64,000 nucleotides of DNA from Mariniblastus sp. (GTDB taxonomy: Bacteria; Planctomycetota; Planctomycetia; Pirellulales; Pirellulaceae). The notes below the pieces were generated by a model. The model did no database searches, was not told the DNA's origin, and worked only from the letters and a program-made list of their open reading frames with translations. Both the position numbers and the translations under genes were made by a program. This document shows, one piece after another, positions 36,682-57,421 of the stretch (positions are counted from its first letter, which is position 1; every line of letters starts with the position of its first letter). The stretch spans positions 79,078-143,077 of the forward strand of contig JAKVBF010000012.1 in the NCBI GenBank assembly GCA_022447555.1. The letters are read 5' to 3'.

Positions 36682-37860
36682 TTAGCTTTCTTTGCCAATG
36701 GAGTCCGCTGGTAAACGGGTGGCCGCAATCAGTGCTGGCAGGCAAGCCGCCAGACCGGCCAAGACAATGGAAACCAATAGAATGATCCAAGGTTGTGACC
36801 AGTCAATCGTGAACCGCTTTCCCGTTGCCTCGAACGAGTTCAGACAGTAACTATGGGCTAACCAAGAACCGATTGCACCTCCTAAGAGGCCTCCTAGTAA
36901 TGTCAGTAAAACGGAACGGCCGACCAAAAGAGTCAAAAGCTGAGTGGACCCATATCCGATTGCCTGAAAAACGCCCATTTCGTTACGTCGCTGCAGAGTA
37001 TTCCAGAACGTCATGGCAAGAATGGTCAGGACGAGCATGGTCCATAGCATGTTTTGAATGACGACACTGTTGGAATGATTGAGTGAGCGAATACTAGCTC
37101 GGGCATTGGCCATTTGCTCTCGTCTTAAGAGCACGGCTTGGTCGGTAATCCGAGCCAGTTCATTAGACAAGACAGTTTCTGACTTGAGACCGGTTCGTTC
37201 GCACTCTTCTTCGGTGCATTCGATGGCTTCAATACGGCTTAGCTGGTTTATCTTGTTAAATAGTGTTTGGGCCAGAGAAAGGTCTAGCAAGACAGCACCG
37301 TCTTGCCAGGTTCCATTCGACCGATTTACGCGGGCCACCCTAAGCGATTGGTTCTGGACGACGACTTCGGCCTTGTCGTCGCGCTGAATGCCTAACGTCG
37401 CTGCCAGTTCGCTACCAAGCTGAACTTGTCCCTGAGGAATCGACCGTTGCATGGGTGACTTAGGGCGGCCGGGCATCGGTACCGATGCTGAGATGCCGAC
37501 CAGTCGGACAGGTACTGTTTTCTCGGCATAACGAACTCGAGTTTGAACTTCCAACATCGGAATCAGGTGGTTCAGAGAGGCGCGGTATTCGATCAGTTGA
37601 TCCATTACCGCTTCGCTCATCGTCTCGGAGGCAAAACCTCCGCTGCGATAATACGACAACTGATCGACCTCCGCCGGTAGAATCACTACATTGGATCCAA
37701 TGTCTCGAACGTTTCGGGTGATCTCCTTCTCAAAGCCGTCTCGGGTAACGGAATAAAACGTGACGGCTGCGATAATCACCATCACCACGACGGTGAAAAG
37801 CAGGCTGGTTTTCCAGCGATGGAGTATTTCCCGAATAACTAACGTGGTTGTTCCAATCAC
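36682..37860 (-). CDS. FtsX/MacB/LolC-like ABC permease
   Basis: 392 residues. The N-terminal helix (TSLLFTVVVMVIIAAVTFYSV) is followed by a large periplasmic domain of about 190 residues (IGSNVVILPAEVDQLSYYRSGG, then VRLVGISASVPMPGRPK). Three helices then form the C-terminal FtsX unit (LWTMLVLTILAMTFWNTLQRRNEMGVFQAIG, LLVGRSVLLTLLGGLLGGAIGSWL, IILLVSIVLAGLAACLPAL). This layout is shared by MacB and LolC/E, which move lipoproteins, peptides or antibiotics, or act as mechanotransmitters. The start is a GTG at 37860 overlapping the previous stop (GTGA). Together with the LolD-like ATPase it would form a type VII ABC machine, with the adjoining single-helix protein as possible partner. Confidence 0.87.
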   Translation of the reverse strand: MIGTTTLVIREILHRWKTSLLFTVVVMVIIAAVTFYSVTRDGFEKEITRNVRDIGSNVVILPAEVDQLSYYRSGGFASETMSEAVMDQLIEYRASLNHLIPMLEVQTRVRYAEKTVPVRLVGISASVPMPGRPKSPMQRSIPQGQVQLGSELAATLGIQRDDKAEVVVQNQSLRVARVNRSNGTWQDGAVLLDLSLAQTLFNKINQLSRIEAIECTEEECERTGLKSETVLSNELARITDQAVLLRREQMANARASIRSLNHSNSVVIQNMLWTMLVLTILAMTFWNTLQRRNEMGVFQAIGYGSTQLLTLLVGRSVLLTLLGGLLGGAIGSWLAHSYCLNSFEATGKRFTIDWSQPWIILLVSIVLAGLAACLPALIAATRLPADSIGKES

Positions 37861-39128
37861 GATGTTGGCCTGCCTGCTCCGGGAGTCAGGCGATTCCCCA
37901 AAAATACAATGAAAACCAACAGAATCAAGATCATCCCAAGCAGCAAGCCCCAGGGGATACTTCCCTGAGTTCCCTGAGTGGCGGGCGTTGCATCGGCGAC
38001 CGGCGGCAGAGGTGTTTCAGTGGACGGCGTGCCCCGCGCGCTTTGCTTTATTTCTGGAACCGCAGAGGCAGTCGGTTCTGCTGGCGTCACCAGAGGATCT
38101 AAGTGGTCGAGTTCGTGGATGACCAGCCCGCTGCCCAAGCGGGGTTGCGGCTCTTGGCCGACCGGATTTCCTAGTGAGGCACCCTTTTGAATGATCTGAG
38201 TGACTTCAGCTTGCACGAGGGTTGAATGGGGATCGAAATCAAGACTGGTTTCAGCGGCGCGCTCATTAGCCAGCGTCCATCGATGCAGGATTTGTTGACC
38301 ATACAGCCATTGTTGATCGAGATCGCATTCGCAGTTTCGGCCGCAAATGCTGGCACGCGCTACAAGCCTCTCTTCGAGCTGCTCACTGGCGGTCATGATT
38401 CCACCGAGGACCACACCCTGCCCGTAAAGGAGGACGATTTTTGGTTCGTTCATCGATTCGGCTTGGAGGCCGAGTGACCGAATCAACCATGACTCCTGTT
38501 TTCGATCCGACACCTTTAATTCATATAAGCCCGGTCCCTGATCAGGCGCTTTCTCGTAGGACCACATCTGTTTTTTGATAGAATCAATTGCTTCCTGCGC
38601 CGCGGTTCGCGCTGAAGCGTCGGCTGCTTGCCGGCCAGATTGAATCAAAAGTACTCCGCATAAAGATTCTGATAAATCATCCAGTATTTGATTTCTTAAC
38701 GGTGATTCAACGATCCCAGAGAGCGTCTCGGATAGTTCATCCACGGGTATCTGCAGGGCGATTTGATCGCCCGTTGAACTTGTAAGGGAGGCGGCAAAAG
38801 GCGGCTTCTCTCTTCCTTGGGGGTTAGTCGCGTGAATCACACTTGCTTCGGGCCCCCCTTCGTCCACCCACAAGTAGTGGATATTTGTCCGATCCAGCGC
38901 CCGCTTAACCTGTGCATTCCATTGTTCAAACTGGGCGGCTGTAGCCGAATTGGGTTTGATGATTTGAAGGCGCCATGGATCACGATGAATATTCACAAAC
39001 GCCACATCTCGAACGCTATATTTACAGGGTAGTGGATTCGAGGGATAGAATCCTACCCCGGTAAACAGGGTGATCAGCATCAGTATTATTTTGGTTACGT
39101 TCATTCCACAGTCATCGCCATCGAACAC
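37857..39128 (-). CDS. Unknown membrane-anchored protein with CxxxCxC motif
   Basis: 423 residues, family not recognised. It has a signal-like segment near the N-terminus (VTKIILMLITLFTGVGFY), a large exported domain (FVNIHRDPWRLQIIKPN, YGQGVVLGGIMTASEQLEERL), a cysteine motif CGRNCEC at about residue 270, a Pro/Thr/Ala-rich linker and a C-terminal membrane helix (WGLLLGMILILLVFIVFLG). The exported part could contact the FtsX-like permease encoded next, whose start overlaps its stop. The frame starts with GTG immediately after the PQQ gene's TAG (TAGTG). The ATG at 39104 is a possible alternative. Confidence 0.65.
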   Translation of the reverse strand: MFDGDDCGMNVTKIILMLITLFTGVGFYPSNPLPCKYSVRDVAFVNIHRDPWRLQIIKPNSATAAQFEQWNAQVKRALDRTNIHYLWVDEGGPEASVIHATNPQGREKPPFAASLTSSTGDQIALQIPVDELSETLSGIVESPLRNQILDDLSESLCGVLLIQSGRQAADASARTAAQEAIDSIKKQMWSYEKAPDQGPGLYELKVSDRKQESWLIRSLGLQAESMNEPKIVLLYGQGVVLGGIMTASEQLEERLVARASICGRNCECDLDQQWLYGQQILHRWTLANERAAETSLDFDPHSTLVQAEVTQIIQKGASLGNPVGQEPQPRLGSGLVIHELDHLDPLVTPAEPTASAVPEIKQSARGTPSTETPLPPVADATPATQGTQGSIPWGLLLGMILILLVFIVFLGNRLTPGAGRPTS

Positions 39129-53890: not shown

Positions 53891-53926
53891 AAGAAAAAAA
53901 GCCGCTCACGTTAGCAAGCGGCTTTT
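53891..53926 (-). terminator. Rho-independent terminator after the selenoprotein candidate
   Basis: GCCGCT (53901-53906) pairs with AGCGGC (53917-53922), extended by A-T pairs. A run of seven T follows on the minus strand. It lies 31 bp after the TAA at 53957, the end of the read-through frame, and thus supports that longer gene end. Confidence 0.88.
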
Positions 53927-53956: not shown

Positions 53957-54415
53957 TTAGTTTTGTGACCAGCCCTCAATGTGCTTATTTGTCTTGGACA
54001 GGTCATCCAAAACTTTTTCAACATCCAGATCCTTCACAGCTACAAAAGTCGCGGTGGCGGTTCCAGTGTCGCAATTCAATTCAGAGATTCCTTCAACTTT
54101 GGTCAATGCGCCTCGGACCGAGGCTGCGCATCCACCTCACGTCATGTTTGGTAGTTTGAGAGCGACTACTTGAGTTTCTCCATCATCAGACATTTTAGGT
54201 GTGTAGGATGTTGATTCTTCTTCTTTAGCCGGCGCTGGTTCAGCGTCAGCATTTTCGTCGGTTTTGGGTTCGGCTGTTGCGTCAGGTGTCGCGTCAGGTG
54301 TGACTGCTGGCGCGGCTGCTGGTTCAGCGTCTTTTTTCGCTTCACCGCATCCTGCCAGAATGACAGCACTGGCCAGAAATAGGCCGAGGGCCGAAAGGCT
54401 CTGTAAGGTTTTCAT
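53957..54415 (-). CDS. Putative selenocysteine-containing HMA-domain lipoprotein (in-frame TGA read as Sec)
   Basis: 152 residues if the TGA at 54139-54137 is read as selenocysteine 93. The N-terminus is a lipoprotein signal (LFLASAVILAGC, lipobox LAGC), then an Ala/Pro/Glu/Thr-rich linker to about residue 75. The last 75 residues form a heavy-metal-associated domain. It reads QVVALKLPNMT, then the TGA codon, then GGCAASVRGALTKVEG, ISELNCDTGTATATF and EKVLDDL. In HMA proteins the metal-binding motif is MTCxxC, so the TGA replaces the first Cys (UxxC). A SECIS-like hairpin follows the TGA. GGAG lies seven bases before the ATG, and a terminator follows the downstream TAA. Ordinary gene calling would end the gene at residue 92. 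The alternative is a simple nonsense mutation. Expected function: metal binding or redox chemistry at the cell envelope. Confidence 0.85.
54106..54131 (-). promoter_or_regulatory. Candidate bacterial SECIS element
   Basis: On the minus strand ATGCGCAGCCTCG-GTC-CGAGGCGCAT folds into a lower stem ATGC/GCAT, a GCA bulge, and an upper stem GCCTCG/CGAGGC. The apical sequence is GGTC, starting 17 nt after the TGA. In E. coli fdhF the loop GGUCU starts 18 nt after the UGA (from memory). The loop sequence and spacing therefore fit SelB recognition. Confidence 0.75.
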
Positions 54416-54599: not shown

Positions 54600-54634
54600 A
54601 AAAAAAGACCAACTACGGATTTGTAGTTGGCCTT
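54600..54634 (-). terminator. Rho-independent terminator after the His-rich lipoprotein gene
   Basis: CCAACTAC (54609-54616) pairs with GTAGTTGG (54623-54630), and the minus strand continues into a run of T. It separates the transcript of the gene at 54782-54982 from the selenoprotein candidate. The rest of 54416-54781 (366 bp) has no gene and must hold the latter's promoter. Confidence 0.88.
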
Positions 54635-54781: not shown

Positions 54782-54982
54782 TTATTCCTCGTCCCCGCCT
54801 TCGGCGTGGTCATGATCTTCACCTTCGGCGTGGTCATGATCTTCACCTTCGGCGTGGCTGTCCTCGGTAGCTGGTGCTGCGTCCGCTGGAGCCTCTGTTT
54901 TTACGGCTGCGTCGCAACCACTCATTACCATGAGGCTGCAGCCGAATAAGCCTACCAGCATCAGTCGTATTAATACTTTCAT
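54782..54982 (-). CDS. Small lipoprotein with His/Asp/Glu-rich metal-binding tail
   Basis: 66 residues. A lipoprotein signal with lipobox MSGC (LMLVGLFGCSLMVMSGC) leads to a mature chain of about 43 residues. It begins with Ala/Pro/Thr spacing and ends in repeated GEDHDHAE units followed by GGDEE. Clusters of His and acidic residues of this kind bind Zn, Ni, Cu or Co. The role could be metal buffering at the membrane surface. AAGGG lies seven bases before the ATG. The gene lies upstream of the HMA lipoprotein on the same strand with a terminator between. The two share the pattern of a lipobox, an acidic linker and a metal-binding end. Confidence 0.8.
   Translation of the reverse strand: MKVLIRLMLVGLFGCSLMVMSGCDAAVKTEAPADAAPATEDSHAEGEDHDHAEGEDHDHAEGGDEE
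54800..54857. repeat. 24-bp tandem repeat in the His-rich lipoprotein gene
   Basis: TTCGGCGTGG recurs at 54800, 54824 and 54848. The first two units are identical over 24 bp and the third is partial. Each unit encodes eight residues (GEDHDHAE) on the minus strand, so copy number could change the metal capacity. Confidence 0.9.
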
Positions 54983-56824: not shown

Positions 56825-57421
56825 ATGATGATGAATGGAAACTTGTGGCTCTTCGTTTGGATGATTGGAATGATGTCGTGTCTGACGACGATCGCAATGG
56901 CTCAAGACGCAGGCCAAAGCAAAGCTCAATCCAAAGAGGCGTTGAGTTTTAAAATGAAGTCAATCGACGGCAAAGAAGTTGACCTTTCAAAGTATAAAGG
57001 TAAGGTCATTGTCGTTGTGAACACGGCCTCAAAGTGTGGCATGACGCCACAGTACGCGGGCCTACAAAAATTATATGAAGAGAATTCACCGAAAGGATTA
57101 CTAGTCTTGGGATTTCCCTGTAATCAATTTGGCCGGCAAGAGCCCGGTACGGATTCTGAGATTAAGTCGTTTTGCACGGAGAATTACGGCGTGAGTTTCC
57201 CGATGTTTGCCAAGGTAGATGTCAATGGCCGGAAACAAGCTCCTTTCTTTAAGAATCTAAGCCAAATGGATCTTCAACCGAAAGGACCGGGGAAGGTGCA
57301 GTGGAACTTTGAAAAATTCGTGATCGACCGAAATGGAAAACCGATTGCCCGGTTCAGTCCGCGGACCAAACCGAATGACCCGGAGTTTCAAAAAGTCATC
57401 AAGACAGCCTTGAGTCAGTAA
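56825..57421 (+). CDS. Exported glutathione-peroxidase-family protein (Cys type)
   Basis: 198 residues. A signal peptide (LWLFVWMIGMMSCLTTIAMA) precedes a complete peroxidase domain. The peroxidatic residue is Cys71 in NTASKCGMTPQY, encoded by TGT, so this enzyme is not a selenoprotein. The Gln is in FPCNQFGRQEPG and the Trp/Asn in VQWNFEKF. The second Cys (FPC) may resolve the disulfide, and the physiological donor may be thioredoxin rather than glutathione. Export to the periplasm is predicted. Three ATGs stand at the N-terminus and the first is used. A terminator follows at 57440. Confidence 0.93.
   Translation: MMMNGNLWLFVWMIGMMSCLTTIAMAQDAGQSKAQSKEALSFKMKSIDGKEVDLSKYKGKVIVVVNTASKCGMTPQYAGLQKLYEENSPKGLLVLGFPCNQFGRQEPGTDSEIKSFCTENYGVSFPMFAKVDVNGRKQAPFFKNLSQMDLQPKGPGKVQWNFEKFVIDRNGKPIARFSPRTKPNDPEFQKVIKTALSQ

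Follow-up and report, generated by a model that had tools for sequence, protein, structure and literature searches.

A conserved in-frame UGA in a putative lipoprotein gene of Mariniblastus sp. very probably encodes the selenocysteine of a UxxC metal-site HMA domain

Introduction

Selenocysteine (Sec) is inserted at UGA codons by an established mechanism, in which SelB bound to a SECIS hairpin brings the Sec-tRNA to the codon, and most of the roles that have been assigned to Sec are catalytic. Selenoproteins with an HMA domain are already known as predictions. A table of the GOS survey names Mercuric transport protein MerP among selenoproteins (PMC2398784), and passages of a 2026 review include a UxxU metal-binding family and a UxxC cation ATPase among predicted selenoproteins and describe UxxC as a common redox motif in those predicted for bacteria (PMC13188914).

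Here we have analysed a window of 64,000 nt of Mariniblastus sp. (contig JAKVBF010000012.1), whose minus strand carries a gene (54415-53957) that, judged from its sequence, very probably encodes a selenoprotein. MerP (TIGR02052; PDB 1osd, 1afi) resembles the predicted window protein in having a single extracytoplasmic HMA domain, and TIGR02052 is the best NCBIfam match of the latter (32.8 bits, below the cut-off of 92.55). In contrast to MerP, the window protein has a lipobox and a long linker, and no mer genes were seen nearby. The UxxU metal-binding (seleno)protein family NF041115 likewise has a small HMA-like domain that carries Sec at its metal site, but is named for two Sec residues (UxxU), whereas the window protein has UxxC and scores 25.1 bits against a cut-off of 95. 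In the MerT/CopZ fusion-like heavy metal transport selenoprotein NF045683, a CopZ-like domain matches residues 80-127 of the window protein (30.1 bits); this model is a 235-position fusion with a cut-off of 375 bits, and the window protein matches the CopZ-like part only. Lastly, small bacterial CopZ-like HMA proteins (L049-L110) show, over the matched stretches that were compared, the same core IPNMTCGGCA, with Cys at the place of the TGA.

A scan of 40 members against NCBIfam, with cut-offs given for the first member only, returned no dedicated family model. Searching the literature by title, we found no description of a lipid-anchored UxxC HMA selenoprotein, although an earlier one in specialist papers is possible. 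The same search found none of a YceI-fused or four-Sec tandem selenoprotein (selenoprotein combined with YceI gave no paper), and PMC12013277 and PMC5029168 contained no matching terms. A sequence-only reading of this DNA had named no described lipid-anchored HMA protein of this kind. Our searches agree with this for the lipid-anchored UxxC form; HMA selenoproteins at large, by contrast, had been predicted before (the table of PMC2398784, NF041115, NF045683).

Results

An open frame continues through an in-frame TGA into an HMA domain

The minus-strand frame opens at the ATG at 54415 and reaches a TGA at 54139-54137 after ...LPNMT (92 aa). Beyond this TGA, the frame stays open for 59 further codons (GGCAASVRGALTKVEG...GWSQN) up to a TAA at 53959-53957, and reading the TGA as Sec gives a product of 152 aa with Sec at residue 93. 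The context of the TGA in this product is ALKLPNMT-U-GGCAASVR, at the place of the first metal-binding Cys of HMA domains. From its N-terminus, the product consists of a signal peptide that ends in LAGC, a linker rich in Ala, Pro and Glu, and the HMA domain, which makes up the C-terminal half. The lipobox LAGC was recognised by eye at residues 20-23, and its G22 and C23 are nearly invariant in a 40-row alignment. The features of the locus are as follows.

53957-54415, minus strand: very probable selenoprotein gene, 152 codons with Sec as codon 93, then TAA (TGA-spanning open frame and Pfam HMA in the joined product)
54137-54139, minus strand: predicted Sec codon TGA, placed where the HMA domain has its first metal ligand (of the domains read, 75 have TGA here and 6 a Cys codon)
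54110-54124, minus strand: SECIS-type hairpin GCCUC-GGUCC-GAGGC at nt 16-30, the U of UGA being nt 1 (fold energy and covariation)
53981-54160, minus strand: HMA domain, residues 86-145 (Pfam PF00403, 40.6 bits; predicted fold)
54347-54415, minus strand: signal peptide and lipobox LAGC, with residue 23 as the putative lipidated Cys (by eye)
53897-53926, minus strand: terminator-like hairpin 3' of the selenoprotein gene (consensus scan)
54605-54634, minus strand: terminator-like hairpin 5' of the gene, between it and the small lipoprotein gene upstream (consensus scan)

Since terminator-like hairpins lie on both sides, the sequence suggests that the selenoprotein gene is probably transcribed alone, as a single gene.

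The joined product matched Pfam HMA (PF00403) over residues 86-145 with 40.6 bits (E 3.5e-10; cut-off 24.8), while the part before the TGA gave, on its own, no HMA match in Pfam. The metal site is UxxC, a variant of CxxC in which Sec replaces the first Cys and the second Cys is kept. AlphaFold2, run with 25 sequences and with Sec entered as Cys, predicted beta 81-87, alpha 94-105, beta 110-116, beta 121-127 and alpha 132-142, that is, a beta-alpha-beta-beta-alpha fold, the ferredoxin-like last strand not being resolved in the model. Block means were 87-93 pLDDT over residues 81-140, and the low values of the N-terminal part brought the overall mean to 69.6. The best solved match in a structure search, and the only one under E 0.001, was oxidised MerP 1osd (E 1.0e-4, TM 0.78 by target length); a sequence profile search also matched MerP and the HMA domains of copper ATPases. 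These results bear out what the sequence-only reading had described at this locus: the HMA-type sequence over 59 codons behind an in-frame TGA is confirmed by a Pfam match that spans the TGA, the terminator noted after the frame was recovered by consensus scan as a terminator-like hairpin at 53926-53897, and the placing of the TGA at the first metal-binding Cys agrees with the same ligand position in 74 other HMA domains read.

The TGA is conserved and is exchanged for Cys in relatives

When 196 genomes of the order were searched with the joined protein, 21 of them had matches; 13 of the matching places contain one internal TGA, and the 12 best places were all among these 13. A profile built from 14 TGA-bearing domains then matched 66 of 241 family genomes with an E value no higher than 1e-6, and 58 of 392 genomes across the phylum, there mostly weakly and without TGA. 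We fetched 80 loci around the profile and earlier matches, leaving out about 14 weak places of the family search (at most 40.2 bits, one with TGA) and dropping L048 (the same gene as L186) before counting, and read 85 domains, the window included.

The first ligand position was TGA in 78 of these domains, Cys in 6 and another codon in 1. Three TGA domains in which the next Cys or Sec lies at a different distance (L243, L244, L245) were set aside, leaving 75, and L242, the seventh non-TGA row (a partial match in which the motif is absent), was excluded from both the TGA and the Cys sets. A Cys codon stands at +3 from the TGA in 74 of the 75 domains, the exception being the degraded copy L237. 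This copy (genome G620) appears to be a decayed HMA selenoprotein domain, with UxxR for UxxC, an extra TAG and no intact hairpin.

Cys occupies the place of the TGA in L191 (genome G605), L192 (G592), L203 (G580), L218 (G579), the second domain of L215 (G603) and L241 (G576). The Cys-form L192 nests in the window's own five-row group (support 96/96), beside the Sec-form L246. The tree, which was built on few columns and leaves 33 of its 72 inner branches open, needs 4 Sec/Cys label changes, and its well-supported branches force at least 3.

When the window's codons after the TGA were compared with those of L186 and L187, two orthologues from the same genus, dN was 0.10-0.12 and dS 0.60-1.15, from which it follows that the half beyond the stop has been selected as protein. 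A sequencing error is very unlikely, because many separate assemblies share this triplet. A search of plasmid records at E 1e-5 was negative. The argument, first made from the coherence of the downstream half, that this is no old pseudogene has thus gained from purifying selection after the TGA and from the covarying hairpin described below, and the homologues that had been called for, with either a conserved TGA or Cys at residue 93, exist in both forms, TGA in many species and Cys in six relatives.

A covarying hairpin follows the TGA

The RNA after the window's TGA folds with -20.6 kcal/mol (z -3.41 against dinucleotide shuffles). Hairpin counts were made on all 75 TGA rows (71 distinct), with no selection for pairing and with L237 included. 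Standard pairs filled 85.4% of the stem cells, compared with 33.0-49.6% when one arm was slid by 1-3 columns. Two-sided changes occurred at all five stem pairs, in 50 cells against 11.2 in shuffles, and none of 500 shuffles reached the covariation score. Stem variants among the rows include GUUUC/GAAAC, UCGUC/GACGA, ACGUC/GACGU and GCUGC/GCAGC. Other rows form their stem in another register: CGUUC-CGUGAA-GAACG in L219 and its kin, GCGUC-CGUGAAA-GGCGC in L205 and its kin, and AGUGC-GGUCU-GCACU or a near variant in L224, L234 and the L230 repeats.

Stems with 5 or more pairs were present in 73 of the 75 TGA rows (not in L231 or L237) and in 1 of the 6 Cys rows. Across the TGA rows the best stem averaged 6.29 pairs, against 4.83 in synonymous recodings whose codon pool came from the same short region, which itself favours stems; the energy difference was mild (mean z -0.67). 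As recodings average 4.83 pairs, stems of 5 pairs are not unusual by chance, and we relied on the covariation instead. Loop positions 22-23 (GU) are invariant, although a Val codon there would force GU. The GGUC loop of the window presumably resembles that of the E. coli fdhF element. An Rfam scan of the stretch gave no family match; bacterial SECIS elements are too variable for a single model, and this result was therefore not counted against a selenoprotein.

The genome encodes the Sec machinery

Absence of selA, selB, selC and selD had been named beforehand as grounds against a selenoprotein, and all were found in the same genome (4.19 Mb, 62 contigs, 97.5% complete): selA with 569 bits, selB with 357.9 bits, selD with 273.2 bits and a tRNA-Sec (selC) with anticodon TCA with 68.6 bits against a cut-off of 47. 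The four genes are spread over four different contigs. The selD match lies inside a 733-codon frame (L013 1393-3594, minus strand), the first half of which looks by eye like an FAD oxidoreductase.

We compared 50 family genomes with the TGA form, a list made by hand from the family profile search (TGA and about 50 bits or more), with the remainder. A selA match at E 1e-60 or better was present in 45 of these 50 and in 80 of the 191 others (Fisher P 2.8e-10, a value that overstates the independence of the cases, as the genomes are kin). Among the remaining five TGA-form genomes, four have selB above cut-off and one, G687 (80% complete), is without selA or selB match. In two of the Cys-form genomes, G579 and G580 (each 99% complete), selB was not matched at E 1e-50 and selA was matched only at low scores, 297 bits (over the cut-off of 267.9) and 260 bits (under it). 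Two others, G605 and G592, retain selA and selB, yet use the Cys form. Low-scoring selA-like matches (252-308 bits) were seen in G579, G580, G015, G078, G093, G097, G172, G616 and G606, and this group is perhaps a SelA-like paralogue.

The domain occurs in several kinds of carrier protein

By a rough pattern, 44 of the 78 TGA rows have a lipobox ahead of the domain, L240 being doubtful among them. By motif, 11 rows carry a YceI-like fusion, and in the one row run against Pfam (L198) YceI scored 111.7 bits. Among these 11 is a second predicted selenoprotein gene of the window's own genome (L189, G000:C1:550369-550584), with the Sec-HMA domain behind a YceI-like domain. In 11 further rows the N-terminal part is longer and without lipobox; of the three run against Pfam (L215, L224 and L236), L224 alone gave a weak LTXXQ match (18.1 bits, below the cut-off of 24.3). 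L230 (G620:C92, about 36749-37876) reads as a single 450-residue lipoprotein in which every one of four HMA domains has its own in-frame TGA at the ligand place and its own GUC-loop hairpin, four TGA codons in all. Across L250-L255, from other planctomycete classes, and L256 and L257, from two more genomes of the family, there are HMA-like domains in which TGA occurs as UxxC, UxxxC or UxxxU, and several of them lie behind a lipobox.

Neighbouring genes

At 71 loci, inspected by eye, the genes that recur as neighbours differ with the orthologous group: the same flanks surround the gene in the window, L186 and L187, and another group sits beside rpsO/pnp-like genes. No metal-transport partner was seen among these recurring neighbours, and mer genes were absent from the Pfam matches of six neighbour genes in the window. 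We accordingly dropped a reading of the locus as a mer or cop operon, and the proposed metal role draws on the HMA domain.

Upstream of the selenoprotein gene, 54782-54982 on the minus strand encodes a 66-residue His-rich lipoprotein with EDHDHAEG repeats and no HMA domain, the N-terminal part of which shows about 40% identity to the selenoprotein over residues 1-59 of the latter. The same-genus orthologue L048 has a similar His-rich repeat inside the selenoprotein itself. On the plus strand, 56825-57421 is a glutathione-peroxidase-family gene in the Cys form (NTASKCG), in a genome that uses selenium; glutathione-peroxidase-like genes are also found near the selenoprotein gene in L186 and L187.

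Discussion

Our computations show an open frame, a UGA that is conserved, a hairpin that covaries, the genes of the Sec machinery, exchange between Sec and Cys, and the predicted fold of the domain. That Sec is inserted in vivo and the protein lipidated, and which metal it binds and to what end, we infer. The reading that we regard as likely is a lipid-anchored, extracytoplasmic Sec-x-x-Cys HMA protein, with Sec insertion driven by a SelB hairpin, that acts as a soft-metal trap or relay. SelB would bind the hairpin 16-30 nt downstream, and the UGA at 54139-54137 would be read as Sec. The product would be exported and lipid-anchored via its lipobox, the flexible linker spacing the HMA domain from the membrane, and Sec93 and Cys96 would make the site of a MerP/CopZ-type HMA domain outside the cytoplasm. 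By analogy with MerP and CopZ, the most likely partners of the Sec-Cys pair would be soft, thiophilic ions such as Cu(I), Hg(II) or Ag(I). A selenolate, softer and more acidic than a thiolate, would bind them more tightly and be deprotonated at lower pH. Such a membrane-tethered site could capture, buffer or hand over Cu(I), Ag(I) or Hg(II).

A redox role is a serious rival to this metal role, even if we rate it as unlikely. The protein would again be a selenoprotein, with its Sec-x-x-Cys working as a lipid-anchored selenenylsulfide oxidoreductase or oxidant sensor on an HMA fold. In its favour, the Sec-Cys pair would be exposed on the oxidising side of the membrane, the locus has a glutathione-peroxidase-family gene close by (56825-57421), none of the recurring neighbours seen is a metal-transport gene, and passages of the 2026 review describe UxxC as a common redox motif in predicted bacterial selenoproteins (PMC13188914). 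Against this, several carriers add His/Asp/Glu-rich stretches (HDHAEG in L048; L231), which suit metal binding. HMA domains are metal-binding domains and are not known as redox enzymes. The neighbour genes seen favour neither role.

If the TGA were instead a true stop, the gene would encode a 92-residue lipoprotein followed by a decayed remnant. The 92-residue part would indeed make a complete small lipoprotein, and a similar one without HMA domain is encoded upstream (54982-54782); nevertheless, the codons beyond the TGA are under purifying selection, 74 other domains have this TGA, the hairpin covaries and 49 of the 50 TGA genomes have selA or selB, which together make this reading very improbable. 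Least probable of all is a changed genetic code in which the TGA stands for another residue such as Trp. Any code that reads TGA would leave the frame open, but of the window's 34 ATG frames with 250 aa or more, 9 terminate in TGA, the selenoprotein genes of L026, L027 and L028 themselves end with TGA, selB and a tRNA-Sec with anticodon TCA are present, and the residue in rows without TGA is Cys in 6 of 7.

Taking the soft-metal reading further, planctomycetes may possess a phylum-wide, undescribed class of extracytoplasmic selenium metal-binding modules, in which Sec rather than Cys would be the working ligand for high-affinity capture of soft metals (Cu, Hg, Ag) at the surface or in the periplasm and which would span the lipoprotein form, the YceI fusion, the helical-domain fusion, the four-Sec-HMA tandem and the UxxxC/UxxxU forms; for this broader proposal, class and range together, we see the chances as evenly balanced. 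Standard gene finding ends such genes at the TGA, and a class of metal-site selenoproteins is thus probably mis-annotated in planctomycetes. The repeated Sec/Cys swaps at one metal ligand would offer a natural test of what a selenolate does in extracytoplasmic soft-metal binding. A four-Sec-HMA protein would be unusually selenium-rich for a bacterial protein, and a family with Sec as metal ligand, if true, would bear on why cells pay for Sec.
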